A DNA stretch of 64,000 bases, from positions 2,046,001 to 2,110,000 of the forward strand of contig NC_080577.1 of NCBI RefSeq assembly GCF_029962835.1, given 5' to 3'. Source of the DNA: Magnolia sinica (lineage: Eukaryota > Streptophyta > Magnoliopsida > Magnoliales > Magnoliaceae). How positions within the stretch are numbered: the stretch's first letter is position 1; each line of letters starts with the position of its first letter. Below, one piece after another: positions 1 to 43,800 of the stretch. A model generated the notes under the pieces. It was not told where the DNA came from. It did no database searches and was given only the letters and a program-made list of their open reading frames with translations. The position numbers and the translations under genes are program-made.

Positions 1-52
1 CCGGTGGAGCACTTAGTATTTATTATATTTTTGTTAACTAAAAGCAACAGCT

Positions 53-124
53 ATCAGAGTGGCGTAGCGGAAGCGTGGTGGGCCCATAACCCACAGGTCC
101 CAAGATCGAAACTTGGCTCTGATA
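53..124 (+). tRNA. Initiator tRNA-Met (CAU)
   Basis: A complete 72-nt cloverleaf can be folded. The acceptor stem pairs ATCAGAG (53-59) with CTCTGAT (117-123), with A124 as discriminator. The anticodon stem GTGGG/CCCAC encloses CCCATAA, giving a CAU anticodon. The overall sequence is that of plant initiator tRNA-Met. Compared with the usual sequence as I remember it, the D stem has T in place of C (a G-T wobble pair remains) and the T stem reads CCAAG/CTTGG instead of CCAGG/CCTGG, a paired change that keeps the stem. T-runs after position 134 could end Pol III transcription. The structure looks intact, but the changed B box leaves activity uncertain. Confidence 0.85.
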
Positions 125-140
125 AATAATGTGGTTTTTA

Positions 141-19100: not shown

Positions 19101-19364
19101 CTGGAAAAGGAGACCTCAAATGATCTTCTGTTTATAAATTACAATCTCAAAGTAGCAGCCCGAGCAAAAGGGAAGCCTGGAGACGCCGATCCCATTATAG
19201 TCGATGACATAGATATGACTTCTGATTGGGTGGAAGAGACGGAAAACCCAAGCCCAACCCAATGGCTTGATCGGTTTGGTTCTGCTTTGGACGGTGGTGA
19301 TTTGAACACTAGACAATTTAGCGGCGCGATCTTTACTTCAAACGATCACATATTTGGTTTGTGA
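16140..19364 (+). CDS. Domesticated hAT-transposase protein (BED zinc finger, DUF659, hAT dimerisation)
   Basis: Three exons: 16140-16180, 16825-18450 and 18958-19364, giving 677 residues. The start codon is split: A16180 closes the leader exon and TG opens the next (GTAAGC donor at 16181; GCAG acceptor ending 16824), giving MVREKDICWEYAEKLDG, the N-terminus of the AT1G79740 family. The reading frame upstream of 16825 is T-rich intron. Domains: BED finger about residues 8-51 (C22, C25, H38/H39, C51), DUF659 from about 150 to 300, hAT C-terminal dimerisation about 555-610. Acidic residues typical of the hAT core are present in ADTWTD (D206), VIMDN (D266) and TYERNW (E574). Introns, single-copy context, lack of terminal repeats and full-length conservation indicate a host gene, probably a nuclear DNA-binding regulator. 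Its exact function is unknown. Confidence 0.93.
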
Positions 19365-21597: not shown

Positions 21598-22040
21598 CTA
21601 TGCCCCATCACGATTTGTGTTAGATCCACACCGTCCATCACCAGATCATTCTAGTTCGTGAACTCAAAAATGAGGCACATCCAAAGCTCAATTGGACAAC
21701 ACCCAGAAAGAGTAGGGATTGAACAAACCACCATTGAAACCTTCTTAGAGACAACGGCAGGGTTTATTTGTCATCTAACTTGTTCATAAGGTCACATAGA
21801 CAGGGATGAAGGTAAGAAACAAGTATCAGCATGATCGCAGCCTTCTATGGCCCAAAGAAGATTTCAATAGTAGGCATTAATTCCTACCGTTTCCTGTGGT
21901 GTGGTCTACTTTATCTTTGAATCCGGCTTCTATTTTGGGTTCGTATCCTAGAGTGATATTAAAAAAAAAAAAAATAATAATAATAATAATAATAACTGAT
22001 GGACTGTGTGGATCCAAGAAACGCATAATCGTGGGGCCCA
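21598..22040. mobile_element. Dispersed foldback repeat, GGCCCACC family (copy 2)
   Basis: It runs from TATGCCCCATCACGATTTG and CCACACCGTCCATCA through AGGGATTGAACAAACCACCATT, GTTCATAAGGTCACATAGAC and TTTCCTGTGGTGTGGTC to GGACTGTGTGGATCC and CGTGGGGCCCACG. The two halves are partial inverted images, as in foldback MITEs. Confidence 0.6.
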
Positions 22041-22149
22041 CGTAAATTTCAGGCCTCGAGAAATTCCGTAGCTGGCTGTGCGGGGCAGCACATTCCGGAA
22101 AGAGGGAAGAAAACCGGAAGTGTTCACTCGTGGAGCTTCCATGGCCATC

Positions 22150-22565
22150 ATAATCTATGTGTCAGATTCACCCCGTCCATCCAATTTTTCATTTCCTTTT
22201 AGGCTTGGAAAAAAAAAAAGGCAGATCTAAGGCTCAAGTGGGCCATACTACAAGAATCAGTGGGAATTTAACATCTACTGTTGAAAACTTTTTTGAGGGC
22301 AGTAGAAGGCTCAGATCAATCTGATAATATTTGTTTTTTCCCTTCATTCAGGTCTGTGTGACCTTACGAAGAGGTTAGACTGCAAATAAACCTCAAGGTA
22401 GACACTAGAAAGGTTTCAACTGTAACCGTTCAATCTTCGTTACTTTCTGTGCTGTGATCAACTTTAGCTTTCGATGTACCTCATTTATTTTTTTATTTTT
22501 TTTGGCTCATATCCTATAATGATACGGAATTTTTGATGGATGGTGTGGATCTAATGAGGGTTGGC
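22150..22565. mobile_element. Dispersed foldback repeat, GGCCCACC family (copy 3)
   Basis: Same phrase order as copy 2 (CACCCCGTCCATCCAATTTTTC, AAGTGGGCCATACTACAAG, GTGTGACCTTACGAAGAGGTTAGA, GATGGATGGTGTGGATCTAA). It lies immediately upstream of the presumed promoter of the XEG113-like gene. Confidence 0.6.
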
Positions 22566-22599
22566 AACGCGTAATTTGTGTCGTGCAACGCGTAATTTA

Positions 22600-23191
22600 T
22601 TGGAGAGAAAATGGATGTTTTTTGTGAGCTGCTGCGATGGGCGATTACACAGACCAATGACAAGCCACGGCCAGAATTAACGTGTGCCTTTCAGCACAGA
22701 CGATCTGCACTTTAAAAGATGCATGCGAGTATGCATAGAAAGTTCCTTTCTAGGGTACACGTGGCAAACATGCCACGTATATAGGCCATATCACAATATC
22801 CAAGGGGACTGAACTGCGGTAGGCATCGTCCAGCAAAAGGAATGATGAGAGCAATAGTCCATATTCAACCAACATAACTCGCAATGAATGGATGGTTAAG
22901 TTTGTCCAATCAGTTGGATCTTTCAGACCATAGCACATGCGCATCTCTACCCACCAGATCAACGGTCCCGATTACCATATATGCTTTCCAAGTGCACCGT
23001 ACGGAAGGAAATGCACAGAACTTCTATGCAGCAACCTTCAAATTAACTATCAACAGCAGTTACAGCACACCACAAAACACTCGTAACGGTAACGGTCATG
23101 GAGAGTGACGCTCAAATAAAATGAAATCGTTCCCTTTGGATTTGATTTGGGTGATGTTCTCTACATGTCCCATCTCATCACCATAATCACC
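22600..23191 (+). promoter_or_regulatory. Probable promoter region of the XEG113-like gene
   Basis: This is the unique-looking sequence between the repeat and the first coding exon. It carries a G-box/ABRE-type ACACGTGGC near 22,755-22,763. No convincing TATA box was identified, and the leader length is not known. Confidence 0.35.
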
Positions 23192-24529
23192 ATGGCCCAC
23201 AAAAACCATAATGTCTTCATGACCGTCTACACCGTTGTGATTGCTGGCATTGCCTTTTACATCCTCTCCATTGTTTACATGAGAAGCCAAATCATCTTTT
23301 CGGGAGTGTGGCCTACCTGCTCAACAGTTGTTAGTAAGTTCCTTTCTTCTCATTATCTTCTTCTTCTTCTGGATTCTGATTTTCTTGTTTGATTGTATTT
23401 TCTAGTTATTTCATATGATGTTTTGGAGAAATGCTGATGTGATCTATGGGATGATAGATTGAAGGGTGCGATTCGTGGCTATATCCAACCTGGAACTTGC
23501 GATGGAGGCACATGCCATTCATTAGGTGGGACCCACCATGAACATGACCTGGACCAAAAAATAGGCCAGTCCACCCATCGAGTGGGCCAGGTGTATGACA
23601 GTTAAGAAAAAAAAACAGATCTCTATATGATTGGACCAACTTTTTTCTGGATAGGGAATATATTCGGTGGACCCCACTTGATGAATGGTTTAGATCTCGG
23701 TCGCACACACCAGATTGGCATGTGTTCTACAAAACGCATCTTGAATCTATCCTCGAACATTTCTCTATGTATCATAAGATTCCTATCAGTAGCTTAATGT
23801 GGAAACTGGGAAGTGTCTGGTTCAGGGAATTACATGATCCTCTGGCAGAGAATGGAGGATGATACCCACCATCAAGATATCTATTCACTGTATACTTGTC
23901 ATATAGATACCCCAATCTAAACCGTTCAAATTGCCGGCCCGCTGAATGGGGTGAAGTCCAAATTCACTTTGATAGGACCTCTGGCCATCTAAGCAGGCAG
24001 TTAAAAGCACAAAGTTCAGCAGTCCAAATTCAACAGAAAAGATCCATTTATCAGACTACTAGGATGCTCAGATCAGTGGGATTTGATCTATGCCCCATTC
24101 ACGGTGGGGCCTATGATTCGGATAGTCTGGATTGAGTGCACGCATATGGCTGTCCAACAGCGTGGAATGCGGTATAATGTTCTGCTCTGTTGTCTTTCTT
24201 ACTTCAATGCAATGCCTTTTTCAGATTCTACTCACATGGATCATGCCTCCAATCTATCTCGACCTGCGGCAACCGAAAATGCTTCATCACAGCGTCATCA
24301 AGTTATATGGACAAGGCCCATATGGGATGGCCCACCTGTTGGGACAAAAATGCCACATTCTGAGGGCTTTCAACTGACCAAAGAAATGGTGAATCATCGA
24401 GTGAAAGACAATGTGATCATCGTAACCTCTGGCAACCATGCATTCATGGACTTCATCTTGAATTAGGTTAAACACCTGACTGATCTTGGACTGTTTAATC
24501 TTCTTGTAGGTAATTTATTTATGATTTAT

Positions 24530-25330
24530 ATGAACCCCCTTGGACCCCTCGTTCGGAGTATCCCCGATTTTATTGAAATATCATTGATATTGTCCGTATC
24601 TCCAGCTCAGAGATAACAATAACACTGGTAGTGATACCGATAACACTGGTGGTCTTAGAAATTCGAGGTATTGGTGATTTATTGCTAAGTATCACCACAT
24701 GTCGCTTGTATCAACAATTTATCGATATCGCCAATATTTACAACTGTGTAAATTCCATTTGTCGCTTTTATCGACGATATTTCAATAATATCACCAATAT
24801 ATCGATATCGCCAAAAATCTATTAAAATTTCCATTTTAAATTATTTTTTTATGGGCGCATGGTTGCATGCAGTGTTCAAATTGTCAATGATAATACCGAT
24901 CGTATCACCATATTATTGTTATCGCAGCATGGGTGATGTCGAGACCGCGATATCAAGACCGCAATCTTTCGTTCCCTCTCTAATTGTCGATGATTTCTTG
25001 GCAAAATATCTTGTGTTGCTGACATTCTTAAATATTGATGGATGTTTGGATGGATGGATGGGATGGTTGGACTGGTTTCTTATGATAACAAGTGCTTTTA
25101 GGCCCCCATTAAATGAAAATTTATTATGTATGCATCATTTTTACAAATTTTTTATTCTTAAATATGAAAATGTGTATTTTAGCATCTCCTAAAGTTTCAC
25201 TGAAAATTTCCACCATTTCCCTCATGTTTCCCTTATTTTCAGTTATCGACATGATTTCCGTATCCCTGGCCAGAGAAACTTGTTGCGATACTGATACTTC
25301 GAACACTGCTAGTACCGCAGATGGGCCATG
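24530..25330. repeat. Dispersed ATCGATATCGCC-type repeat in intron 2
   Basis: Short alternating motifs (CAATTTATCGATATCGCCAA, CACCAATATATCGATATCG, CCGATCGTATCACC) are scattered over the intron, suggesting a decayed palindromic repeat. No termini or duplication were identified. Confidence 0.35.
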
Positions 25331-25523
25331 GCCATAAAATCATTTTGGTCAGATGATCCTGACTGCTTGATTAGCCAATTCTGTAAGTAAATGTGAATTC
25401 TGATTTTTGGGTCATGGCCCATATGTAGAGGGACCCGGCGGTCTTGTGAAAGCTGCCATGTGCTGCCATGGGACATTGAGTGATGATAGTTGCATAGCTC
25501 CCCTCTATGTTTCATATTCTTTA

Positions 25524-25804
25524 GGGGCTGTTTGGATTGGTGGAAATCAAAAGGTGATTGAGGAAATGAAATTGATTTTCTTAGATGTGTGATTTCTTTC
25601 GTTTGTCAGATCGAGGAAATCAATTTTCTTTTCCTCAAATTTTCTCTATGAAGGGTCATCTCCTTTTCTACTCTCAGACCTAAAGAAAAGGAAACATTTT
25701 CCTTTTCGACGATTTCCCACAGATCTCCCTTTCCAGAGTTTTCCTTAGATGTGATGTTTTCCTTTCCTCATTTACTTTCTGATTTCCACCAATCCAAACA
25801 GGCC
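25524..25804. mobile_element. Tourist-like (PIF/Harbinger) MITE
   Basis: The 281-bp element begins GGGGCTGTTTGGATTGGTGG and ends with the inverse, CCACCAATCCAAACAGGCC, giving about 25 bp of terminal inverted repeat. It is flanked by TTA at 25521-25523 and 25805-25807, the PIF/Harbinger target. It sits 28 bp upstream of exon 3 of the XEG113-like gene, so its right end crowds the branch point and polypyrimidine tract. Confidence 0.9.
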
Positions 25805-27127
25805 TTAAAGAAGTTCAAATTGCTGTTTGCAGGTGCTTTGGACACCACACTTTTGGAGGCTTTATATAGGAAAGGCATTCCTGTCTTTGATATTGGAAGT
25901 AATATGACTACAGCTGATATTAGTTGGACATCATATGAATTTCTTGAAATGGGGAGAGAGAAAGTAAGTTTGATCACTCTTTTTCTATCGTTCGGCTACG
26001 AGATATTGATGTGCAATGCAGACATGGTTTGGTTGAAGGTAATCTTCACTTGGTTTTATTCTAAAATCTACTAATATAGTCCATTTCACTGGATTATTAA
26101 GTCTTTCGAATTGGAGACTAGATCGGACATGTATGTGCATAACAGCACTGACTCTAGTCTGGTCTTGATGAATACCATTGACACCTTAGGCCCGATACTA
26201 ATTTGATCCTTTTTAGTCCACTCACCACTAATTTCTGTTAATCTGTTGCCAAGCTAAAAATCATGTTCTACTATGTTATTTCGTGCCAGTTCTACTATGT
26301 TGGCCAACTAAGATAGGTTTAAATGTTTACCGTTGTGAGGTTGATGGATCTATGGTTAGAAAAGAACCAATAGATTGCAATGAGATTCCCACAGTAATTA
26401 AATAGGCCCCACCACAATTCTGACATTCCGTAACGAATCCCATGAAGGATTATAGGTCATTTGCGATCAGATCACCACTTTTGCTGATCCAAAATCATGT
26501 TTTCATACTCATAGTGTATATTAAATTGTGGAATAAATCTCTATTAAGAACCTAGAGATTTATCCTTTGATTTATGAAACATCTTATATATAATGGAATG
26601 CATGCAGGACCTATAATAATAATAATAAGTGCTTTACTAAGCGCAAGCATGGCATGATAGGTCTAAGATCCAATGCATCTATCAGAATGGCACCACCATA
26701 TTGATGCCCTAGCCTAAGAGTTAGGTTGATTCACTGGTCAGGTGGGACATAGTTTGCAAAACAAATGTATGTCAACAAATCATGCCAGATTCAAGCAAAT
26801 ATGCCAAGAAGGAAAGAAGAACTAGCCTTGATAAAGAAATCAAGATTTCGAACCTCCAAACACCAAATATGGAGTTTACGCAATGGACCTGGCCACTTTT
26901 TACTCTATGTGCACAACAATAGTGAGGCTTGTACAAACTGGAAAAGTGTAGAAGGTTCTAGAGTAGGATAGACCGATGTAGTGGTCTGTAGTGAAATCTA
27001 GAAATACAAGCCACTACTAGGGTCTGGCCTATTATAGAGCCTTCTACACTCTTTCAATGTGTACATGCCTCGCTGCTATGTACATGCAGAGCCAAAAATG
27101 TCTAATGGCTAAGTCCATGGTGTAACC

Positions 27128-27279
27128 ACACCCTGATCCATAGCTCAAGTGGTAGACTGAGTGAAAGATACCTCGTTTCAACACTGAGGTCTTGGCATCG
27201 ATCCCTAGTGGGGGTGGCTAACAGTGAAGTGTGAACTGACAATGGGGTGCACTTAACAAGCTAACTAAAAAAAAAAAAA
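27128..27279 (+). mobile_element. tRNA-derived SINE with 17-bp target-site duplication
   Basis: The element starts ACACCCTGATCCATAGCTC. It has an A-box-like TAGCTCAAGTGGTAGA and a B-box-like GGCATCGATCCC and ends in a run of A. The flanks AAGTCCATGGTGTAACC at 27111-27127 and 27280-27296 are identical. The perfect duplication points to a recent insertion. It lies in intron 3 of the XEG113-like gene. Confidence 0.9.
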
Positions 27280-28895
27280 AAGTCCATGGTGTAACCTCCT
27301 TGTCTATGACATTCTGCTCCATGACTACTGTAAATGCACTTTTTGGGACCCAAAATCTCCCTACAAATGACTCTTGTGTATCTTCTTTCTCCTCTTCTTC
27401 TTCTTCTCATTCGCATCAACTGTATCCTTCTCCCATGTAAGTTAATCATTTCTGCAAATGAATTCTTACTCTCGCCGCATATGAATGCACATAGACCTTC
27501 TCATATGGGTCATACCTGAAGGTTCAAGAGGAATATTTTGATACTCTGGCAGACTTAGTCTGGCAGGCTGATGGATGACACACAGGTAATTATAAATTAC
27601 TAAAAAATTGCTTACATGGCATACAAATAATTAGAATTAAAGCGTTCAAATTATGGGGACCAGTTTAGATGTATCATAAACTAATAATTACACTTATCTA
27701 GTTAATGAAACATTAGATCGCTAGACATTTATTGAACGGTTAGAAATGAAAAAAATCCAATGTTCTTATTTCAAAAAATATTTGTCCACGAATCAGATGT
27801 TCGGATTGTTCAACCAGCATGATTTTTATATTGTAACTTAATGACAGTGGGTTCTACAATTTAATCAGTTTAATTTGGGTTAACACATGCCACGTATTTT
27901 AACCATTTCTAAATGCCTGCATATCAAGTGTCATATGCAGCTCGAGTGTCAAATAACTCCCCAAGGTTCAAATATCACAACAATGGGCAGGAGGCCGGAA
28001 TTTTGTGATATTCTAAGCAATACCCAAACACACCCTTATACTGTCTGATTCTTCAAGCACAAAAATAAGCCTATATTAGAATTTTAAATGGTTCCAAAGA
28101 CTTTTTTGGCATGAAACCTGTTCCAATCTTCAAAAATAATATTGCCTTTTAATGGGTCATAGGTGTTGTTTGTAAACTAGATGAGGTGCCATTTTCTGGT
28201 ATTTCAAATACATTGGGAAAATTCAACTCCCCAAGGCAGTCCTGACTTTCCACCTTAATAGTACATTTCATCGAACATTGTATCAAAAACTAATTGAAAT
28301 GCTACATCCGGCCTCAACAGACTTTGTTATTAGCTGAAACTAAATTAATCTTGTGATTCGCTCTTCTTCATCTATTTTTATCATTAATTCAACATCTATG
28401 TCTCTGTATTGTTCTTGGTTCAGAATCCACTTCCGTATTTCGCATGTTTTCCAAAGGCAGACATTTTAACTTCAAGTGATCAGCTGATCCCCACAGTCAC
28501 TGATGACAGCTTGGAGAAATGGGAAGAAGGTGGACATTGTATTACAGTCTTTTGAAGTTTGTCTCATAGATTTTATTTCATTTTCATGTTCACATTTGCT
28601 TTAATGTTTCTAATAATTGTATATGCTGAGTGCCTAACGCATCACGCTGTTATAACTTGTCAGGACTAATTTGTGAACTCATTTAACGGAGTAGCATTGA
28701 CATTATATCTTGAGTCCAGGCCCATATTTAGCTGTCAAGAGCCAGGCATGGAGCTGAATTTCAGGCGAAATAAACTGGGCAGGGCCTGGACCAGATCCAC
28801 CCTAGACTAGCACAATGCTAATCCCTTTATATACATTATGAATTCCAGTTTTTGGGTGTGCTCAGGTATGAATATATAGATGGATATGAAAAAAT

Positions 28896-29283
28896 AGCTT
28901 TGCTAGGCACACACACGTGTGCAATAAAGCTTATGTACACGCCACACATGTAAAAGCATGGCACATGGGTGCAAGATCCAATCATCAGGTTGGTCTGACC
29001 ATGTACATCTTTTCCTAAAAATATATTGTCCACTCGGCATGTGACCCCAATACCAGAAACAGGTGGATGGGTGAGAAAACTTGAACCCAGTTTTTCATAG
29101 TGGTAGATTTCCTGTGCTAATCATCAACCACCTGACGAGTTGATCAACTTGGATCTTGGACTAGGGCATCAATATAGTGGTGTTGTTCTTTTGGATGGAT
29201 TTGACCTCAGACCTGTAGAGCCATGTTGGCACATGTGTGGTGTACTGAGATTTATTGCACACGAATGTGTGCTTAGCAAAGCT
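28896..29283. mobile_element. Foldback MITE in intron 4
   Basis: The left arm AGCTTTGCTAGGCACACA, then CGTGTGCAATAAAGCTTATG and ACGCCACACATG, recurs inverted in the right arm (CACATGTGTGG, ATTTATTGCACACG, TGTGTGCTTAGCAAAGCT). Arms are about 55-60 bp with several mismatches. No certain target duplication was found. Confidence 0.65.
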
Positions 29284-29676
29284 CAGGAATAAATACAAGT
29301 TATACAGACATAGTTTCAGATACTAGATGGGTTATATCTTCCAATCTGGGATATTTTTTAGTTGCATCATTTTTTAGTTGCGTTTGGATGCATTATTAAA
29401 TTGAATCCCAAGCATTCAACTTTAATCATGTTGATATGACCAAATGGTAACAAAGCTTACAGTATTCACAATGAGTGACCCTCAAATTACAGCTACATTT
29501 TCTTTCAAGTCCATCCTGAAATCGATGTAATTTCAATATGGTGCCCGGCACCACAAAATTACTAACTCCTTAGCACCCTCATCCATGCTGGATTTGTGCA
29601 ATGCCTCAACATTGCTCAGGTCAGCCCATCATCCACTTGCACTACTAAGTACTAGACACCAAGGAATTAGTGAGAA

Positions 29677-30053
29677 TGTAAGATAACCCAAAAGAGTGGC
29701 TGTATTAGACTATTTAGAGAAGATTACAACTTCGAGGAGTTTGTCCCAAATGAGGACTCCCCTATTATAGGCTTGAGAACCTTCCAGCTACTTAACACCA
29801 ATGGTTACGATTAATCTATGTGGCATATATCCAATGGTCAAGAATTCTCTAGAATCGTTATATATTCTTCTGCACTTCTCTGGGCTACCAAAAACTCACT
29901 AAAGACAACCTTCCTGAGATATCTACACAAATTTACCATTTTCTAGCTACCTCTACACTTATCTATAGGATTCTAGCCAACTACAAAAGTCTCTGTACAT
30001 TATGTACTAACCTCCTATGTACAAAATGAGCCAGAAATGGCCAAACCCCAACA
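29677..30053 (-). mobile_element. Copia-type LTR (solo or fragment)
   Basis: Read on the minus strand it starts TGTTGGGGTTTGGCC and ends TTACA, and it holds a TATA-like CCTATAATAGGGG near its 3' third, as in Copia LTRs. No internal coding region adjoins it and no matching 5-bp duplication was seen, so it is a relic. It lies in intron 4 of the XEG113-like gene. Confidence 0.55.
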
Positions 30054-31618
30054 TTACCCGTGACACTAATCATTTGATATGAATGCTAAGGAAGGTAACA
30101 GATTGTTGTAGTTCAATTTAATACTTCCTTTCTCTATTTCATTTCTTGAATTGTAGATTAAATCTTCATTTTTCAGAAAATTATGTTTGATTTTGTTTTT
30201 TGTTTCTGCCACTTTCCCCTTAAGATTGGCTTTTCTTGATGACATGCCAATTTACCATAAAATCTGATGCAAAAATGTCCTTATATTTGTAAGCAAAGGC
30301 CAAAATACGAGCTACATGTTTCGGTTGTGATCTGAGTAACTTCTTTTCCTACATTTTTTTAGAACAGATCTTGTTCGTTAACTTCTTCTTTTTTATCTCA
30401 AATCCAACATAATTGTTTTAGCAATCTATCTGCTTAGACAATTCAGTTTGCTCAGACAATTTGGTTTTCACCTTCCACAGTAAAACGTGACTTAAACGTT
30501 GGAATTTTCTACTGGCAACCGGCAGAATCTGCAAAAAGATTTGCAAAGGAATGGATGGATATGATTCAAACTTATGACGGTCTATGAGATCAGTTGAGTT
30601 TTAATCCACTCATGCTCAAAAGTTTGGGACCTTCCATTGATGAAGAAAGCGGACTTTTCTATGCTTTTGATGGTAGCCTTAAGCTGGGAATCTTGCCTGC
30701 AAGTATATTTTGCAGTGGACATACATACTTTGTCCAGGTAAGTCCTAGTGTGCTCTAGTAAATCCAACGGGTGGATCCCACTGTAAATGGGTCACAGTCC
30801 AAAATCATATTATTTGGCAATCCTAGCCTCCAAGTTATGGGTTTTTGTTTTCTATCTGGACCACTGACTCTACTTTGTGTCAACCATCCATTTGATGGCC
30901 ACCAATCCAACAGTTAGGATCACCCATTCAGTGTGATTTTGGGTCTATTACCAGTCAAAATGGGACCCGCAATTTTGACAGTTTGGGTTTTGGTACATTT
31001 AACTCTTCCTAGGAAAATCTTTATGCAAATATCACTTATCATATACCGTTTTCTTTTTTCTTTTTTCAATAGCATGGAATGACTCTATCTGCATTTCTGT
31101 GGTAGTTCACTATTTTTCTAAGCCTTTAACTTCATAGACAGGCAATGTATGAACAGCTCAGATTGGAACCATATGCTGCACATACTACATATCAGCATTC
31201 GGGTACTGACGGAAAGCGCCACCGTCTACAGGAAGCGAGGCTTTTCCATGACCCACCAGAATATTATGATTTGCCTGGTAATCTCTATACATAAGGTCTA
31301 ATGTAGCTTGTGTATTGTATTCCTTCAGATTGCTACTTGTGAATACGTGTTGATAGTACATAATTAAGACTTCCCCATGCGAGGAATGATCACATACAAC
31401 CCATTGCATGGGAACTTTGGATGCAACCCAGATGACATGCCAATGTGTCACGTGTAGGGATCCAAGATATGTGTAAGGTGGGTCCTGCCATGAGGATGAT
31501 CTGGATAACAAAAATAAATAAATCATGCAATCCACTCATCATGCAGGTCCCACTTGTACTTTGAATCCAATCTTTCACAGGTTTGAGTTAAGCCATCCAT
31601 AGTTTTTGTATGTGGTGC

Positions 31619-34600
31619 TGTCACGCCCTGAAAATCCGGGGTCGAGTAGAAGTCCAACTCCCGAGTTCCAACGCATCACTTATGCAACATATTTAATGAT
31701 GATTAAATGTTGTCTGTATTAGTGCATAAAACATGAATAAGATTAAGCCAAATCAGCAATACATAATCCAGGGATAGTTATAAAATGCAAGCGGAAGACT
31801 TACTCAAATATGTTTAGCATTATAACTCAGTATAGGTCCCCAAAGTATGTATGCATTGTCAGGTCAATAATTACATGTATTGTTTCAAATTACAAAAATG
31901 TCAAAAAGGTAATCGTCCACTACAAGTATAACCCTGAAGCCCCGCCGATCAGAACGATCTATGCAAACCCGCCTGAATACTGCATATATGAGAAGGCATC
32001 CTCATCGTCTACGAAGTCCGCCTCTGCCTCATCAGTCGGGTCTCCATCTGCAGCTAAGACAGAGTCTGGTTGGTGTGTACAACACCGTCCCGTAACATGG
32101 GAGTGAGTGATCAACTCAGTGGAACAATAAAGCAAAGGTAAACATGTTCTCAATTCAGTCAAGCAGTAATGATAAAACAATACAATCAAATATCCCTAAG
32201 TACTTTGATTAATGCAAGAATGGTATGAATAAATGATGCATGCCCTCGCCTGCACTCCCTCTGCGATCTTCATCTAATGGTCGCGCATGTCAGTCACTTC
32301 GTCAGTGCTCTGCCCAACACCAAACGGCACATGCAGTGCGGTGCATGAACGTGATTACCAAGTTCTTATTAGTCCTTTTCATACATCAGGATTGGGAAGC
32401 TAAGGTACCTCCCTTATATCAATTCCTAAACGGTGATCCATTCTAGGGTCATCAATCCTAGTAAATCTCATACGATATTACGGTTCTAGGTCACTGCAAA
32501 GGGCTCGTCACCTTATCAGTGCAGGCCTAGTTTGTACTCTTGTTGTTGCGTAAGGGCTCGTCGCCTCTACGTAGTCTTAGCGTGCGCTCGAGGTCACTAC
32601 AAAGGGCTCTTCACCTTATCAGTGTAGGCCGACAGCTCGAATACAGTGTCCCATACCACCGTATTCGGCTCACGAGTCTGGGTTGCTCACTGGTCACTAC
32701 GGGGAGGCTCGTCACCCCAGCGTAGGCCAACAGCTCGACCACGGTGTCCCATACCACCATGCCTGGCTCATGAGTCTTAGCGGATCGAGGTACCAAGGTT
32801 TAAAAGGGTTTTCACTGGTGAGTTTGGTACCTTGGATTCAAGCAATAGCGTCCATACATAGTGAACATACATCGGGTCAATCGGGTTACTTGACGAGCCC
32901 GACTAGTACGAGCGCACATTGAGTTGATCGACATGAAGTGTGTAAACACTCCGTGTGGCCTAACCACTGCCGACATCCCAAGTACGGCTCAGATTCATCG
33001 ATCATGTCCTATGTGGCGAAACAACCTTAGCCACCTATTCAGTGCCTGTTACCGATTGCCTGGACTATTCCGTAGTCCCAAACACATTAAATTATAACAG
33101 ATAATCATACAAGCTAATCAGAACAGTAATGGATCAACAATTCCAATCATACTAGCATATGAGCATTTGATGGATTTCAACTTAAACATGAATTCACACA
33201 TATGTACTCCCTAAGTAAAACAAACGAAGAATGTAAGTTACATGGAGGAAATCATACACATCGTTAAGATAGTTGAGAATCTCTTCTCAACGCCCATATA
33301 AAGTACAATTTATTACACACTTCTTCATTCAGACATTTCTACAAACACTTAGACTACATATTCTAACATACATGACGTATGTTGGTGATAGCATATATTA
33401 GGGCAAATCCTTTCACTAAGGAATTGTCACATATACTTCAACCATATGTCTACAACAGTTAATCATGGCAAATCCATATCCAGAATCCATACACATACAA
33501 ACATTTCAACAAACACAAGAATACACAATATTCAACATAGTTCATATATATGTGTAAAGTGCGGGAACAACGTGTCTAAGCATGTGATAGCAATTCAAGT
33601 CAGTCATAAATCATTAACTGACATTGAAAGCCTTGAAAACTATAACCTAAACATTTATAGTCCGCACCTTTCACCGGTAGACTCGTAGCGAACTCAGTTT
33701 TAAAAGTTAAGTCTTGTCTACGGCACCACAATAACCTATAACAGGGAATAGGTTAGCTAATTCATCTATTACGCTAGTCGAAAACCCTAAGACAAGTTAG
33801 GGTTAGGTTTTCTTACCTAAGTACGGAGTCGGAATCGCCGGATTTGTGATACATGAATGGCGATTGAGTGCGTGGAGTAGCGGGATCGGATCCCAGGAAG
33901 AATCTCCAACTCTCACTCTCACTTTCTCTCTTTTCCCTTCTCTTTTCTCTTCTCTCTCTCCTAGGGTTTCTCAAATTCGTATGGGGTGAGAGGGAGAGGG
34001 TTTAAGGTCCTTATATAGGCCCAGGTTTGATGGGAATGGCCCCAGGGCCAAGGCATACTTAGGTTATATCCAAATACGGACTGTTCCGGTCCAACGGAGC
34101 ACTTCTGGTGGCCCCTTTTCCACGTGCGGTCGGACTTAAGCTCCCTGACCATGGATCTAGGTCAGGCTGAGTTTTCGTTCCGATCGGGTTTGTAGATCAG
34201 CCGTGGCGGACCAGTTTCAGTTCAACGGTCACGGTCACTCGATCAGGGTCACAAGTACACCGACATGTGTGAGACATTTCTCCTGATCCGAGGGTGTATT
34301 TGGGTCAGATTCTGACGGTCTGAATCCTTATATTTGGCCCGCAAGCGACACGACTCAGATTACTTAAATTCGGATTTTATTTCTAAATATTTTCACGTTT
34401 CTCACACACTTTGCTCCGGGCTCAAGTTGTGCATTTCTAGACACAGTTAGGACTTGATTTCCGAGGGAGTTGTCAAGTCCAGTAATGCGGTCATATCCGT
34501 ATAGTTTCGGGGTAATCGGACTTTCGACGTGCGGTCCAGGTCCGATACGGAGTTTCGGTGTGCTCCCGAGAGCAACCGGGTTTAGGGATGGATTCTAGAT

Positions 34601-34797
34601 TTCAGGGTAACGTAGCGTCAATGATACTGCACGGTTTGGGTCTTGCAGATCATATTTAAAGTGATTAGTGCTAATTTCATAAGCACTCTAGTTTAGCACT
34701 TGCTAACATTAACCTAATTTCTAAAGGTTTTGGTCCTGGGTGATTTCTACCTGAGGTGGTACTCAGGTCCTTGTATGGATTTTTCCGAGACGTTACA
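31619..34797 (-). mobile_element. Large solo-LTR-like element (3.2 kb) in intron 6
   Basis: The element starts TGTCACGCCC and ends GACGTTACA (TG...CA), flanked by the 5-bp duplication GGTGC at 31614-31618 and 34798-34802. On the minus strand a TATATAAGG box lies at about 34,010-34,018, followed by a purine-rich leader and a plausible splice donor (CTTAG|GTAAGA, about 33,815). No gag or pol was recognised and no second terminal repeat was seen, so a solo LTR of a large-LTR Ty3-type family, or a large non-coding LTR derivative, is the best reading. It looks structurally whole at both ends. Confidence 0.7.
32480..32785. repeat. About 110-bp tandem repeats inside the large LTR-like element
   Basis: Three diverged units each carry GGTCACT(G/A)C, GGCTCGTCACC, GTGTAGGCC, CAGCTCGA and GTGTCCCATACCACC in order. 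They are internal to the element at 31,619-34,797. Confidence 0.75.
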
Positions 34798-35207
34798 GGT
34801 GCACATCTGATGAGCGGACAGGCCTGACTGTTTAGCTAGGTGATCTTCGTGGCAAGGTCCACCTTATACACCGCTAAGAGGCCCTACACACTGACACTTG
34901 AGCTGGGTTGCAAGAGAGGTTCCCGTGTGAGTTATAGATGATCTTCCCTTTTCGCATGCAGTCCATTTATTTGTGTTTGTATACACTCATGACACTGTAA
35001 TTTGTTGCAGGGAAAACTCAATGGCTGTAACTTGAGTTTAAAATTAGTGCAGGTGGTTTCTTGTCATTTAAACCATGCATTCCCAGGAGTCTGCTGCTAG
35101 ATGGGGAGCATATAATTGAATCGCACTTTTCCCTCATTAATTACCAAGTATGCATTGGTCGTCCATCAGCCTAGTCTCAATACTTTCCTTTTTAAATATC
35201 TCAGTAT

Positions 35208-35312
35208 GGGCGTGTTTGGTTGCACCAAATTTATGAAATATCATGAAAATTCTCACCAATTAGACTGATTGATCATGAAATATCATGATATTTGGTGCAA
35301 CCAAGCACACCC
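35208..35312. mobile_element. Very short MITE (105 bp hairpin)
   Basis: The left arm GGGCGTGTTTGGTTGCACCA and the right arm (complement GGGTGTGCTTGGTTGCACCA) form a 23-bp inverted repeat with two mismatches around a 59-bp core that is itself rich in TCATGATA palindromes. It lies in intron 7 of the XEG113-like gene. Confidence 0.85.
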
Positions 35313-35904
35313 TAAGAAAATACTAATGTCTGTTAATCACTTCTATTCGAAACATCCTTGCTTATACAGTTGAAGCAGATCAGAGCAGCGCTTTTTTGTT
35401 GCTTTGTTGTTGAATCGGACACTGGTGAGAAGTTTGCAAACCTTCAGGCCATTGCCTGCCTTCAAAATGTTTTCCATTTAAATTGCAATTTCTAGACTGA
35501 GAAAATATTGCACTCTTGTTCCAATTTCAAAAGATGACAAGTGAGAACCCCAATGCATTTCGAAATCTGATTTGAACATGTCATGCTTTCAGTATATAGT
35601 TAATGCACACAGCAATGTATAGTATAGTTTTAACAGACTCTAGATAAAACAAATTACTTGTTAGTACAGTGTTTGTCTGGTCATTTATTATCCATGAGTA
35701 TTGGGATCGATAGAAATGCAGAGCAAAATCTCACCCCTTTGACTGTTGAATGTAATTAACTCAAGGATCCTGTTTAATGGACTGGATATAAGATTAAGGA
35801 TTTATACAGGTGTTGAACTGTTGAATCCTTGATGATGAGCTGAAATACTGTGTTTTGTGTAACTTTCTAGACATGGCCCAGTTTATAGTTTATGTCATTC
35901 AACA

Positions 35905-35907
<3 letters not shown>

Positions 35908-35959
<52 letters not shown>
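35908..35959. repeat. (CT)n microsatellite
   Basis: About 26 perfect CT units form a long polypyrimidine tract 19 bp upstream of exon 9 of the XEG113-like gene, in effect an extended splice-acceptor tract. Confidence 0.95.
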
Positions 35960-35962
<3 letters not shown>

Positions 35963-36589
35963 GTATTTTTCTTCCAGGTGATGCCACCATTGTGGTGCAG
36001 ATTCGATAGACTGTGGTCCCGACATCCTGGATTTCTGCCTGGGACATTGACAAGACAGCCTTTTCTCTGCCCCTTGGATCATGTATTTGAGGTATTGCCA
36101 TTTCCAGGATTGATTAACGAAATATGAGTTGGGAATTTTCCCACATGTGATGTAAACAATGGCTGCACTATACTTCTAGGCGGGCCCGCTTGGGCTTGTT
36201 TTGATTACTGTGTTGTGTTTGGTGCATCGGTATGTGACTGATTAATGCTTACATGGTAAATGAAACTGTTTATGAGAATGGATGGTATGTGTCACTACTC
36301 AAATGAGCTGCTGTAAGTTGCAATTTCACCTGATTAGACCAGAACATCTGTTAGAATGATGCTAAAGAGTCACTGCATTTTAAGGCATGCGCTCATCATT
36401 TGCATGCATTGTGCACGTTCGATTACACAATCACCTCGAAATCTAATTGCTAGTCTAGAAAAGTAGAAATAACCAAATCATAATTTCCTTAAAGGTCATG
36501 TTTTGATTTCACCAATCCAATGGAAATAAATGGAATGTGAAAACGTTCTACATTGATAGGACAGATTGAGATGTTTGGATAGCAAAGAG

Positions 36590-36815
36590 AAGGCCATGTT
36601 TGGATGCACAAATCAACTTGAATTGCTAGTGCTAGTCTAGTAAAGTGGAAATAACCAAATCATAATTTCTGAGTACATATTGGCTGGGCATCAAATTGCA
36701 ATCAGGTTACTTTCAAGTTGGATTTGATTTCTAGAAAACATCATTAATCTTTGTCAGCTCTACTTGATTAGACCAAATGTTTGCAGTTCAGCTTGTGCAA
36801 CCAAACACAGCCTTA
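36590..36815. mobile_element. Degraded Tourist-like MITE
   Basis: Left end GGCCATGTTTGGATGCACAA and right end TTGTGCAACCAAACACAGCC are inverted partners. A related GTTTGGAT...AAAGTAGAAATAACC stretch just upstream (36,420-36,590) suggests two adjacent copies. It lies in intron 9. Confidence 0.6.
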
Positions 36816-39157
36816 ATAATCTTTCAAAGCTTAAGAATCTGACGGGTAGCTATGCTGTGACTACAGTTGAAATTCATCTTGAGTGAACACCCAGAAGAGG
36901 AATTTGGCCCAGGGATCAATTTCAGAGAGTACTCTTTCCTTGACAATCCGTTACTGCCCAATCGGGTACAATCCCATCTGAAACTTAAAATATATAAACA
37001 TCGTAAGGAGTTGGGCTTTTTTCACTAGCCTTTCTCATGACCGGAAACATTTTCTTCTTGACGGTTTCAGGTGAAGGAGTCATGGATGGAAGTTCAACTT
37101 TGTGATGAGCGATCTGCAGATTGTCATGTATCCAATAAAACAACCCAACCATGGATACTTAGATTCCCCAAACACAGCAATGAAGAAACGGTATTTAAGT
37201 TTACTGTGCTAATGTGATGCTCTAATGATAAATTGCAACAATTGAAGCTTACGATCATCCCATGTTTCCTAGAGCTGATCAGTTTCCTTTTGCTCATTAA
37301 TTTGTAAATGAGAACATATTTGCTAGTCCTCTCTAACGTTCTCTAATGGTTATCTGAGAGGACTCTGGCCCGCCATTGGCTGCTGAATAAGGGGTGCCCA
37401 GATCCCAGCACTTCTCAGGGTGGGGTCCTTACTTCCAGCCAATGGGGGCTACCGTAGTCCTCTCACTGTAAGTCTGTAACATTTGATAGGACTATGGTCC
37501 CTTATCTAATAGGCAGTACATGATATTATGAAATGTTTAAATTGAAACTGTGAATATGAATTGTGTCAAAACTTCAATGGTGGTTTTGGTAGGAAGCCTT
37601 TGAATGGGCGATCAGGGACAATTAGGACTCTTTTGGGTGTTTTTATGATTTTTGGGGCAACTTGGATTCTCTTTGCCCAGTTCACCATCTAGATAACATG
37701 GGTCCAAGTTGAAGTTATTTGGATGCCAATTTGAGGAAACGTACCCTTTCCAAATGCAGTTTCCATAAAAAGTTCCTTTTTCCAAAAACACATGGAGCTG
37801 ATGGATGTTAACCTGTTTCACCACACGTATCAAACCCAGATGTGATTGGTGATTATTATTATTATTTAATTAGTCTGGCAGCATACAACGTTTGATACAC
37901 GGGCACTCAGTGCATACATGAAACTGGCTAAATTGTGTGGAACCCATTCTCACTAACTGACAATCCCAAAATCAGATTGGTCGAGCAATCCCAACCTCTG
38001 ATTCGCAGTCACTTGTTTGTTAAAATAGGACCATTGGACATTATTCATTTTAATATGTAAACTTTTTAACCTCTGATTCTTTTTTTTTCTTTTTTGTTGA
38101 AATAGTCACTTATTATTATTATTATTATTATTTTGTTGGGGGGTTTTGGTTCATGAGACATCTAAAGTGGGACCAAGTAATTTCTAAATGCCTAGTATCA
38201 TCCATCACACTCTGCCAGAATATCAAAATTTTCTGCATTCTGATTTGGGATACATTCAAACGGGTAGTCATTCAACACCATCTTGGGGATTTGAGAAATG
38301 TTTGGCCATCTTTGTAGGGACTGATTTTCAGTGTACCAAGGCGGTTTTTGCTCTTCAACAGATGTGCCATTTTCTGCTGCAATATCTCCTCAGCTCTTTC
38401 AAGTTGCTGACAACAGAAAATTCTATCTTGCAGTTCACAACAGTATTCTCCGCATATAAAGATGTCAAGGTCTTGCAGTTCTCATCTATGGAGGATGCTT
38501 TCCAAGGTTTTACTGACAAGGCAAGCTCTTATACATTTTCTACATGGTTTTGCCTCAATGTCAGAATATATTGGTGTTGTGATAGACTAAGATGAACCCA
38601 CGGCTCAGCCAGCCACTGCACAAATGACAAACAAGCATGCCAATCTGGGCCATTCGAGTGCTGGGCTCCAATGTGGATATACCATGGCCAAAAGTCACTT
38701 TGTGACCCCAAATGGATGGTTAAAAAGAAAATGGTTGGCAAGTCCTGATTCAAGGGGGTGAAAATCACTCTTGAGATTGTAAAATGAGTGTCGTGTTTGA
38801 AACCCGAGCTATGCTACATCTACGATGGGACCCATTACTTCAACTGTGCAGATTGGCACGCACACTGGCCACATGTACGGTAAGTGGGTTGCATGACTCA
38901 GTGAGTCAAGTCCATTTGATGATACTGCGGTGGGTGATCACAGTATGTGAACTGCAATCAGGTGAGAGAGGCAAAGTTCAGGAAGCGGGTGAAGCGGTAT
39001 GTGGGTATGTGGTGCTGCTTGAAGAGGCACATTGGTCACATATACTATGACATCTACTGGGATGAGAAGCCCGGATGGAAACCATCCCCACCGAACACTG
39101 CAGCAGATGACCATCCCCCACGGTAGACATATTCCCAGCTGAGAATTGATTCATTGT

Positions 39158-39531
39158 GTTTGGATGCACTAGCGAATTGAATTGCAATTACCAGTTTAGT
39201 AGAAGAGAGGAATTTGCCACTTTGGTTTCTTCCACTGTGGAACTGGGTATTATAATTTAATTCAATAGTGCACCCAAACACAGCCATATCAAGAGCTGTT
39301 CCATCAAGGTGAGAGAGAGATGCATAGTTGTACCGTGACCCTTGTTTGCAGTCGAGTAGTGAGAATTTCAGCGTTTGGATTGTTCCAAAATGCAATTATG
39401 TAACTAAAGTTCCTGAATCAGAATGCAAAAGGATTCATTTCTTTGGACTTCTGTAATTTCCATTTTGTCAAACTGGTTATTACAATTCAATTCAATAGCA
39501 CGTCCAAACACAGCCTGAGCTGTTACACCAA

Positions 39532-39571
<40 letters not shown>

Positions 39572-39760
39572 GCATACTTGTAATGTAACACTTGTTTGAC
39601 TAACAGTAGTGGAGAATTCCAAAATGCAATTTATGCAACTCAAGTTCTTGAATAGGACTGCGAAAGGATGAATTTATTTTGCACTATGGTCAGCTCCATT
39701 CTGTTTAACTGGTTACTACAATTTAATTCAATGGCCACCCAAACACTGCCATACCCAAAA
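39158..39760. mobile_element. Row of degraded Tourist-like MITEs with (GA)n
   Basis: Three successive copies follow the scheme GTTTGGAT...AATTCAATT/AATTTAATTCAATGG...CCAAACACAGCC (about 39,158-39,290, 39,372-39,520 and 39,600-39,755). A (GA)n microsatellite fills 39,534-39,568. They occupy the space just 3' of the XEG113-like gene. Confidence 0.6.
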
Positions 39761-40284
39761 TGCAATTTACGTAACTCAAGTTTTTGGATTTGAACGTGCA
39801 AGGATACATTTCTATTTTTTATCTGAAAGGATGTGTATGTTGGTGGATTTCATTTCTCTGATTGAATTTGTGTAGGAGATCTGGACCGTTCGTTTGGTGT
39901 GCCCTCATTGTGGATGGGCTATAGTGCAGAGATCACAATACAATGATGGGGTGATCGTGATTGCCCCACTTAAGGCCTTCTGCCCACTGCATGCAGATGA
40001 TGGTCAACGCTTTTAGCTATCCGTCTGTAGTATTTTGACGAAGTCAACGGAATTTTTTTATGTGGCCCATCAGTGGTGGGGCAAAGCGTTTAAAAAAGGA
40101 TCATTTCCATCCATCCAAGGCACACGTGCGTACATATACTTTAATCCAGACCGTCCAACGAGTGGCCAATAAGAGCCATCAGTTTTTGCCATCTATTATT
40201 GGCCGTTAATCCATTTCAAAGCGTAGGTTGACACGGGACGCGACTTCCATGTCACCGTGTTACGGGAATCCCATATAAACCCTA

Positions 40285-40700
40285 ACCTCTGTGGGCCCAC
40301 TGTAATGTCATTGTTAGATCCACTCCATCCATCTATTTCGTCAGCTCATTTTTTTGATAAAAAGTTAAAAACGAGGCAGATCCAAAGGTTAATTGTGCCA
40401 CACCACCGTAAACAAGGTGGACGGGAAGGTCCACCACTGAAACTTCCCGAGCCACTTATATCCCATCGAACCCGTTCATAAGGTGATTCTAACCTGGATG
40501 AAGGGAAAAGGCAGACATGAGGCCGGTCCAAAACTTTCGTGAACCCAAAGAAGTTTTTTATGGTGGACGGTCAATCCCCACCGCTTCTTATCATGTGGCC
40601 CACTTAAGTTTTGGATGTGCCTGATTTTTTAGATCACGACCAAACATAGGCCGATGTACGGAGTGAATATAACACAGAAATCAAGGTGGGCCCCGCAGAG
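40285..40700. mobile_element. Dispersed foldback repeat, GGCCCACC family (copy 4)
   Basis: It opens with CTGTGGGCCCACTGTAATGTC and CCACTCCATCCATC, passes through ATCCAAAGGTTAATTGTGCCA and GTTCATAAGGTGATTC, and closes with ATGTACGGAGTGAATATAAC and GGTGGGCCCCGC. It ends about 150 bp before the UBA-gene start codon and may form part of its promoter. Confidence 0.55.
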
Positions 40701-40847
40701 CTTAGGGTCATAGGTCATAACTCGGCTTCCTGTAAATCTACTCATTCAGGACCGACGTAAATACGAAGAGATCCTCTCTCTCTCTCTCTCTCTTTTCAAA
40801 GCAGTTCGCCATTAGAACGGGCTGAATCGATCTCTCCCTCTGTCTAC

Positions 40848-43800
40848 ATGGATTACGATTACAGGAACCGGGCAGCTCCGTACGACTCCCATGTGCCCAT
40901 GTACAACAGACCAGCGACGGGTCCTACAAGCCACGCTCACGCCGCCTCCTTCTACCCAAGGGTCGGGCAATCAGGGCAGCCTGTGGGCCCTCCTCCCATC
41001 GGTCGGGCCCCATCTCTCCACCCTACCTCGTCATCGTCCTCCTGTAAGATTTTCCCCATCACTCTTTCCATTTTTTCCACGCCTGAATTCCTCAATCCGA
41101 GAATTCCATCTTTCAATTCCTCATGTGAACGAATCGTTTGGTTGGTCAATCTCAATATTCATTTGAAATGGCTTTGAAGATTCCGTTCTTAGGGTTTCTT
41201 ATCTCGTTCTTTTAACTTGCTGGTGTAAATTTCATAAGAACTCTTATCTTCGTTCGATCGATAAGTAGGTAGATTTGAGAAACAGGGTAATTTCTAGTTA
41301 CGTGAATTAAGTCATTTCTAATTCCTCATGTGGGGCCCACATGCGGAGATGGTTGGATAATTTGAGCTGCACATCGTCTGGGTGCTGGATTGGATATCCG
41401 GTGGTCCAACAATCATGCCGAAACTATGATCCTGATCATTGATTTATGGAATCGGATTGTGATCCACTGAAATTTCCTCTTCCATGGTCTGTGTTCTGCT
41501 ATGCATATTGATGGTCCAAATCGTCATTTATGCATAAGTTTCTTACTGTGGCCCATTCATGGCAGCCCCATAACATGGATGGTCATGGTCATCAGACTAT
41601 CTCTGCATGTGGTCCTGAATGGGGATTGGGGAGGCACATGTTGTTGATCCTGAGCTGCAACAGAAATGAACCTCTTTTTTCCTGTATCATTTAGGCTGAA
41701 AATCTGATTCGTGTAGTGCATTTTTGTGAACTTTTAATTGCGATTGATTTGCAAGTATAATTCTAATACTGTGGACGTAACTAAATTATAATTTCCTTAG
41801 GGCCTGTTTGGTAAACACCTAAAAATGAGTTCATCTCATTGAATTAATCGTAATTATGCATTGGAGATCATATTTCATTTTGGTAAAGATTCAAAATAAT
41901 ATTGATCACCAACAATCATGAAATCTAATACATAATTATGATTAACTAAAATGAGATGAGCATCTACCAAACAGGCCCTTAGTTTTGGATCACGCCTCCA
42001 AATTACAGTCACATTCCTTTCACATTGGACTCCAACGAAACACAACTCAAATATAAGGGCTACTTCCTCATAATGAGTATTGGGGAATGTATCTAGCTTT
42101 TGTTATTCCCTCTTTATTAAACTGAATGTTCACAATTCAATTCATTAGTGCATCCAAATGCAGTCATACTTTTTTGGATAAGGTTCTAAATCTTGACTAC
42201 ATGCGGGTAAGTTTAGAGGGGAAATAAGATACATGACAAGAATCACATGAATCGGTTTGCTAGTTGCAAGTTCATATCACCATTGATGTGATGCTTATAA
42301 AATTTTAAGGTACATCCTTCATATGATGAAGGTTATATATGCAGTTTTCACTGTCTCGTTCCAGATGTCCCTCAAATGGGAACAGGATATCTTCTTCAGG
42401 GTACATTTGGGTGTTTCCTGTTTTCCAATGTGGAATCCATGTTGTTGATATGGTAAATTTTTTATTTTTAATTTTTAATTCCTACACATTCTTAAGAGTG
42501 TCTGGCATTCGAATCTGTATGTCTCTACTTCTGGTTAATTATATCACAAAGCTGATCATCTAAATTTGTTCCACATTCTGAAAATTACAATTTTAATTAT
42601 AAAATGTTAATTCTTTGAGAGAACTAAAATTTTATTAACAAAAAAGGGAGAAAGGAGCAGCAGGGGAAGGGCGGTAATGAGGAATAATAGCTCCCAATAC
42701 AGATGAGAGCCAAAATTTCCAAGAAGACTCAAAACGGATCTAAAGGGACAATTTTAAAAAATCTTTTAAGGGCTTTGGCCGAAGTGATCCCATTCAATCT
42801 GGAAAGGGAAATTCCGATAAAATGTTAAATTCTTCAGTTTTTTTGAGCAATTTGCTGTAAAAGGAAAAACTTTGGACTTTAATTATGGAACTAATTTAAA
42901 AGCAAAGAACCCAGTTGTTTGGAATATGGTTGTCAGTACACAAGTTGCTGGCAAATTTTTATTTAACTTAAGAAATATTGATGAACTGACATGGTACCAA
43001 CGGGAAACATTGTGACACAAATAAATTCACTGAAGTGGTATGGGTTCATGAAATGTACCATGAGGTAGCTACCCTAGTTTTTCCCCTCCCTATGTTTTGT
43101 AGCATGTGAGGATAAAATTTCTGTTATACATTGGGAGAGCTAGATTCCATGATTATTATTTTTTTGAAAGATGATATTTTATTGAAGGAGAACAAAGAAA
43201 TTAAAGTGAGAATTCGATGTGTAAGCTCATTTTGTGTCAGTGCTGTTTGAGATGGATGATTAAAATACTAATGCGGACGTTCCCCCCTCTTTCTTAATTA
43301 TTCCAAGTGAACATTGTGACATTGTGACACATGATGTGTTTTGACTAACTTTTGTGCAATCATTTTCTAGCTGATGTTTTCTTAATTAAATGGCTTAATA
43401 TGCATTTTTTACACTTGCACTCTGTTCTTGATTATGAGTTGTTCCATAGAAAATTAAAGTTCATGCATTGTTTTGCAGCAGGATTGGGCATCAGGGTTGC
43501 AATAAAGCCAGAATACCGAATAACTTCTCCTGTAAGATTTGATGCCAGTTCCTTTAACTCTTTGTAAAAGGTTGTGCTTTGAGCCACTAAGAAATTAAAA
43601 TGAACATTTTTTTTTGACCATTCGGAGAACTGTGATATGGAATGATGCATTTCAATCTTTTTTACGTAAGGATGATCCTGTGTTGCCTTTCTTATTTGGC
43701 AGCCTTCTCTGCTTTTATAACAGGAGAGCTACCTTAGCTGTTCTAGTGGATCCTTTATTTTAGCATAGGGATGGTGGAAGCTCTATAAGACAATAGCTTC

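Follow-up and report, generated by a model that had tools for sequence, protein, structure and literature searches.

A probable non-processed pseudogene of an XEG113-like GT77 gene in Magnolia sinica, with an open-frame paralogue in the same genome

In three papers, Arabidopsis XEG113 (At2g35610), a member of glycosyltransferase (GT) family 77, is described as the beta-arabinosyltransferase responsible for the third arabinose on extensin hydroxyproline (PMC8012813, PMC5371791, PMC11371136). Another plant glycosyltransferase, IRX9, offers a precedent of a different kind: according to the abstract of the relevant study, residues that are essential for catalysis in its homologues are dispensable in IRX9 itself (PMC4132061). 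Here we analyzed a 64,000-nucleotide stretch of the Magnolia sinica genome (C5:2046001-2110000, from contig NC_080577.1 of assembly GCF_029962835.1; hereafter the window, with positions counted from its first letter), and searched the whole genome (1.84 Gb, 127 contigs). The window contains a GT77 gene that we take to be XEG113-like, a name derived from its GT77 domain, its architecture, and general knowledge of the family. We found no literature on XEG113 in Magnolia. Like XEG113, the gene carries a PF03407 domain, and in a second copy, on contig C8, the frame is open and the DXD motif reads DTD. Apart from a single weak match, a genome search located the long C-terminal part nowhere but in these two copies. 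Unlike XEG113, the window (C5) copy is interrupted by two premature stops and a frameshift and reads NAD where DXD would be expected.

The locus is very probably a duplicate pseudogene of the non-processed kind, the other of the two old copies of this GT77 (XEG113-like) hydroxyproline-arabinoside arabinosyltransferase gene being that on C8. It retains its introns, its frame is damaged, and the same genome holds a paralogue with an open frame. This is ordinary gene loss and involves no new mechanism. New in this analysis are the replacement of DTD by NAD in the DXD motif and, in intron 6, a solo long terminal repeat (LTR) of 3.18 kb.

The gene model was obtained by matching exon ends between the window gene and the C8 paralogue, which gave 13 exons for each, in the same order. 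The window gene spans positions 23192-39126 on the plus strand, with the following features:

23192..23333, plus strand: exon 1, with the ATG, an N-terminal hydrophobic stretch (by eye), and the donor gtaagt.
24225..24509, plus strand: exon 2, carrying the in-frame TAG.
24464..24466, plus strand: premature stop TAG; TGG (Trp145) in the C8 paralogue.
25833..26038, plus strand: exon 3, inside the GT77 domain.
26015..26023, plus strand: position of the DXD motif, read as N-A-D; D-T-D in the C8 copy.
28424..28529, plus strand: exon 4, by exon-end matching to C8.
30481..30737, plus strand: exon 5, carrying the in-frame TGA.
30585..30587, plus strand: premature stop TGA; TGG (Trp299) in the C8 paralogue.
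31142..31277, plus strand: exon 6, by exon-end matching to C8.
35053..35147, plus strand: exon 7, by exon-end matching to C8.
35370..35424, plus strand: exon 8, 55 nt against 54 nt in the C8 copy, with the frameshift.
35392..35397, plus strand: run of six T in exon 8, the site of the frameshift.
35978..36091, plus strand: exon 9, by exon-end matching to C8.
36867..36965, plus strand: exon 10, by exon-end matching to C8.
37071..37190, plus strand: exon 11, by exon-end matching to C8.
38434..38520, plus strand: exon 12, next to a GC donor common to the C8 copy.
38962..39126, plus strand: exon 13, with the terminal stop; last residue CGG, TGG in the C8 copy.

Exons 3 to 7 and 9 to 12 are identical in length to those of the paralogue, and the differences in exons 1 (-3 nt), 2 (-48 nt), and 13 (-3 nt) are all multiples of three. 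All 12 introns of the window gene lie at the parental positions; in both copies introns 1 to 11 have GT-AG ends and intron 12 has GC-AG ends. The latter is noncanonical, with the window donor at 38521-38526 and the same donor after exon 12 of the C8 copy. The original prediction, made from the window alone, held that exons, splice phases, and most residues were preserved. The 13 exons and the splice ends bear this out. The phases agree only up to intron 7 and are shifted by one thereafter because exon 8 has an odd length. As for the residues, "most" corresponds to 69.3% amino acid identity to the C8 paralogue over 600 aligned codons, with exon 8 left out.

The C8 copy has a continuous reading frame, and the window copy does not. 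Both stops predicted at conserved tryptophans were read in the window, as was the extra base in exon 8. The first lost tryptophan aligns with tryptophan in the RRA-like and RGXT-like proteins of the same genome, and the second aligns with tryptophan in the RRA-like protein and with asparagine in the RGXT-like one. Of 17 aligned tryptophan codons of the C8 copy (exon 8 left out), 13 are kept in the window, two are stops, and two read arginine. The window frame terminates after 127 codons, and the GT domain begins at residue 139; a C5 transcript, if any, would end upstream of the catalytic domain, and nonsense-mediated decay would be its expected fate. That such a transcript is still in use, whether by skipping exons or as an RNA with a regulatory function, strikes us as scarcely credible. 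Every splice dinucleotide is kept, as this use would lead one to expect, but avoiding all three lesions would mean skipping several separate exons, with loss of catalytic parts.

The lesions could instead be artifacts, the gene being intact and the window sequence wrong at three sites. The published M. sinica assembly is based on Oxford Nanopore reads polished with Illumina data, with an error rate of 0.0072% and a heterozygosity of 1.21% (PMC10999834), and one of the lesions amounts to one base in a run of six T. By itself, this exon-8 base could be a long-read error. At the published rate, 0.13 errors would be expected per 1,867 nt, and the probability of at least three is about 4e-4 if errors are random, so the three lesions would exceed chance sequencing error under that proviso. 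Moreover, neither the lost DXD motif nor the fall of 33.7 bits in domain score, a score that includes one X, is affected by the first stop or the exon-8 base. On the published error rate and on changes not tied to it, we dropped error as the sole explanation; an intact gene is highly improbable. The same heterozygosity, together with the small number of lesions, would also be compatible with a knockout that is polymorphic or specific to one allele of a heterozygous tree, with intact alleles of the C5 copy still segregating. We judge this markedly unlikely: three lesions and the loss of a core motif on one haplotype would seem to be more than one recent null allele.

The original prediction had raised a second functional copy as one of two possibilities. 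When the whole genome was searched with the 192 aa of the C-terminal exons, 11 matches were returned, five in the window, five in one other gene, and one weak match on C13 (E 0.75). That other gene, at C8:91994964-92029126, has 13 exons and a 1,920-nt coding sequence for 639 aa, with no internal stop and with DTD. The implied copy thus exists with an open frame, and its product may be active; it is the candidate for performing the enzyme's function. With an intact second copy on C8, a change in extensin arabinosylation, the other possibility raised originally, need not be invoked. A PF03407 scan of the genome gave 30 exon-level matches, including an XEG113-like one on C8 as well as the window gene; some of the 30 were read; among these, the GT77 or PF03407 relatives were an RRA-like gene (C11), an RGXT-like gene (C5, 0.98 Mb), and the loci L003, L006, and L007. 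The frames read at L002, L004, and L005 are not the coding ones. Two loci were considered as additional XEG113 copies and rejected. The one at C5:983 kb reads by eye as the RGXT-like GT77 gene and is absent from the C-terminal search, and the one at C3:129.9 Mb is likewise absent from the matches of that search. When 20 kb and 10 kb at these two loci, respectively, were compared by blastn with window positions 22001-41000, repeats or intron matches were obtained but no exon.

The DXD motif separates the two copies as well. The window copy reads NAD, whereas DTD is present in the C8 copy and DVD in the RRA-like, RGXT-like, and L006 proteins of the same genome. The PF03407 (Nucleotid_trans) score is 145.5 bits for the window copy, read with X at the stops and with one X inside the domain, against 179.2 bits for the C8 copy, with a cutoff of 22 bits. 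A search of the PDB for structural relatives yielded none, the sole match being a dihydrofolate reductase at E 0.73. We then polarized the sites that differ between the copies, over approximately residues 101 to 400, with the RRA-like, RGXT-like, and L006 (partial) proteins as outgroups; L002 to L005 and L007 were left out. C8 retains the residue of at least one of these three outgroups at 21 sites, against 8 for the window copy (P=0.024). Taken singly, the RRA-like protein gives a C8:window ratio of 15:6, the RGXT-like protein 17:5, and L006 3:1. Splitting the nonsynonymous divergence (dN) arithmetically between the branches, relative to half the synonymous divergence (dS), gives about 0.10 for C8 and about 0.27 for the window branch. 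Pure neutral decay, if it accounted for the whole excess on the window branch (0.076 per site), would predict about 5.6 stops, 3.6 splice hits, and 12 frameshifts, and 2, 0, and 1 were seen; under that decay the probability of at most two stops is 0.08 and that of no splice hit is 0.03. The lesions being fewer than pure neutral decay predicts, constraint on the window copy was probably weakened before the frame broke. The description of good conservation elsewhere in the gene needs qualification: it conceals the loss of the DXD motif and the additional protein change on the window branch.

These data also bear on a pseudoenzyme phase, in which catalysis was lost with the DXD motif while a structural or regulatory role kept the frame intact, the frame following later. 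The concentration of protein changes on the window branch, its higher dN/dS, and the shortfall of lesions would suit such a phase. IRX9 provides a precedent for a noncatalytic plant glycosyltransferase (PMC4132061) and resembles the window copy in that it can do without residues that its homologues need for catalysis; in the window copy one catalytic residue is changed. It differs in being a functional GT43-type protein, whereas the window copy is truncated. The same abstract reports that IRX14 mutated in its DxD failed to complement (PMC4132061). Relaxed constraint on a redundant enzyme fits the same data, the outgroups are distant and the polarized sites few, and two stops against 5.6 are not rare on their own. 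The DXD change may have come before the stops or after them. We consider a pseudoenzyme phase unlikely, and quite unlikely its more specific form: that after the duplication the C5 copy turned into a catalytically dead GT77 pseudoenzyme, its first DXD aspartate gone and its frame still open, was a temporary noncatalytic partner in the Golgi arabinosylation machinery, and was silenced by nonsense changes no earlier than the last few million years, perhaps only in some Magnolia species.

Returning to the duplicate pseudogene, we estimated how old the two copies are. They share 69.3% amino acid and 76.1% base identity over the 600 codons (69.5% amino acid identity over the 597 without stop codons). 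Four methods gave a pairwise dS of 0.62 to 0.84, which varies with the method and with inclusion of the fast N-terminal stem, and a pairwise dN/dS of 0.19 to 0.27 (NG86 bootstrap, 0.18 to 0.29). The dN/dS comparison had been proposed against orthologues; computed here against the C8 paralogue, the value of about 0.2 indicates long constraint. In two genome reports, the whole-genome duplication (WGD) peak lies at a Ks of about 0.75 in M. sinica (PMC10999834) and at 0.70, about 116 million years ago, in M. biondii (PMC7917104). The dS of the pair brackets this Magnoliaceae peak (Ks 0.70 to 0.75), and the copies most likely split at that duplication. A window copy neutral since then would be expected to show about 29 stops, 19 splice hits, and 63 frameshifts (indel ratio, 0.1), against the 2, 0, and 1 seen. 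We dated the loss with assumed indel-to-substitution ratios of 0.05 to 0.15, a kappa of 2, and a rate of 3.2e-9 substitutions per site per year, derived from the Ks and the date given in these reports. Counting all lesions places it 0.9 to 13.6 million years ago (medians, 3.2 to 5.7), and stops and splice sites alone place it 1.6 to 18.5 million years ago; both ranges are rough, the former model dependent. This suggests that the frame was lost about 1 to 14 million years ago. The recent loss that had been proposed, read here as a late loss after long constraint, agrees with the dN/dS, the frame-keeping length changes of the exons (3/3), the unchanged splice dinucleotides, and the presence of only three frame lesions.

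Several observations weigh against this account. As noted, the frameshift sits in a homopolymer, and the assembly was built from Oxford Nanopore reads with Illumina polishing. No third XEG113-like copy was found in the C-terminal-exon search or among the PF03407 matches read, and both could miss a partial copy lacking the C-terminal exons. Comparison of the window with 150 kb surrounding the C8 copy, by blastn and by tblastn of open reading frames (ORFs), revealed no collinear neighbor gene, only the gene itself and apparent repeats. No anchor gene was recognized among the 40 longest ORFs (at least 130 aa) around the C8 copy, listed without a family search, and the UBA-domain gene directly downstream of the window copy has no second copy elsewhere in the genome at E 0.1. 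With no collinear neighbor found there and the downstream gene present once in the genome, it is the dS that has to carry the WGD origin. The pair is thus like pseudogenes left by WGD and fractionation in its retained introns, its open-frame sister elsewhere, its dS near the family peak, and its late frame loss, and unlike them in that the comparison over 150 kb turned up no conserved neighbors.

Intron 6 of the window copy holds one inserted element:

31619..34797, plus strand: solo LTR of 3,179 bp, with TG...CA ends and a 5-bp target duplication, GGTGC, at 31614-31618 and 34798-34802.

A genome search for relatives, in which 40 of 19,941 candidates were scored, listed 45 matches, comprising the element itself, at least 38 other full-length or nearly full-length copies at 89 to 94% identity, and six shorter pieces. 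Four same-strand pairs lie 7.5 to 14.3 kb apart, which would fit whole elements. The insert reads as a solo LTR that leaves the splice sites unaffected. In the C8 copy, intron 8 measures 17.2 kb (C8:92002524-92019697), against 553 bp in the window copy, and contains long reading frames, one of them like the hAT transposase of the window. The latter lies at 16740-19361 (plus strand), in pieces comprising a BED zinc finger, DUF659, and the hAT dimerization domain. A tRNA-Met (CAT) gene occupies window positions 52-125 (plus strand); positions 65-127 have an 86% match at C8:92020306-92020367, in intron 9 of the C8 copy, just beyond intron 8. The UBA-domain (PF21267) gene lies at 40848-49359 (plus strand); five coding blocks can be made out in it by eye, and every one of them has an open frame.

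We propose that the two copies separated, most likely at the Magnoliaceae WGD, and that purifying selection would have acted on both for most of the time since. Constraint on the C5 copy would then have relaxed, its protein drifting and the first aspartate of the DXD motif being lost. Within about the last 1 to 14 million years, the C5 copy would have acquired two nonsense changes and one frameshift. The locus would thus record an apparently late loss of a duplicate that had survived through most of the period following an old duplication, probably the Magnoliaceae WGD. Gene tables that credit this genome with two working XEG113-like genes would be one too high. A readable C5 copy is predicted in Liriodendron and perhaps in some Magnolia species, and the state of its DXD motif would place the loss of catalysis and the loss of the frame in order.

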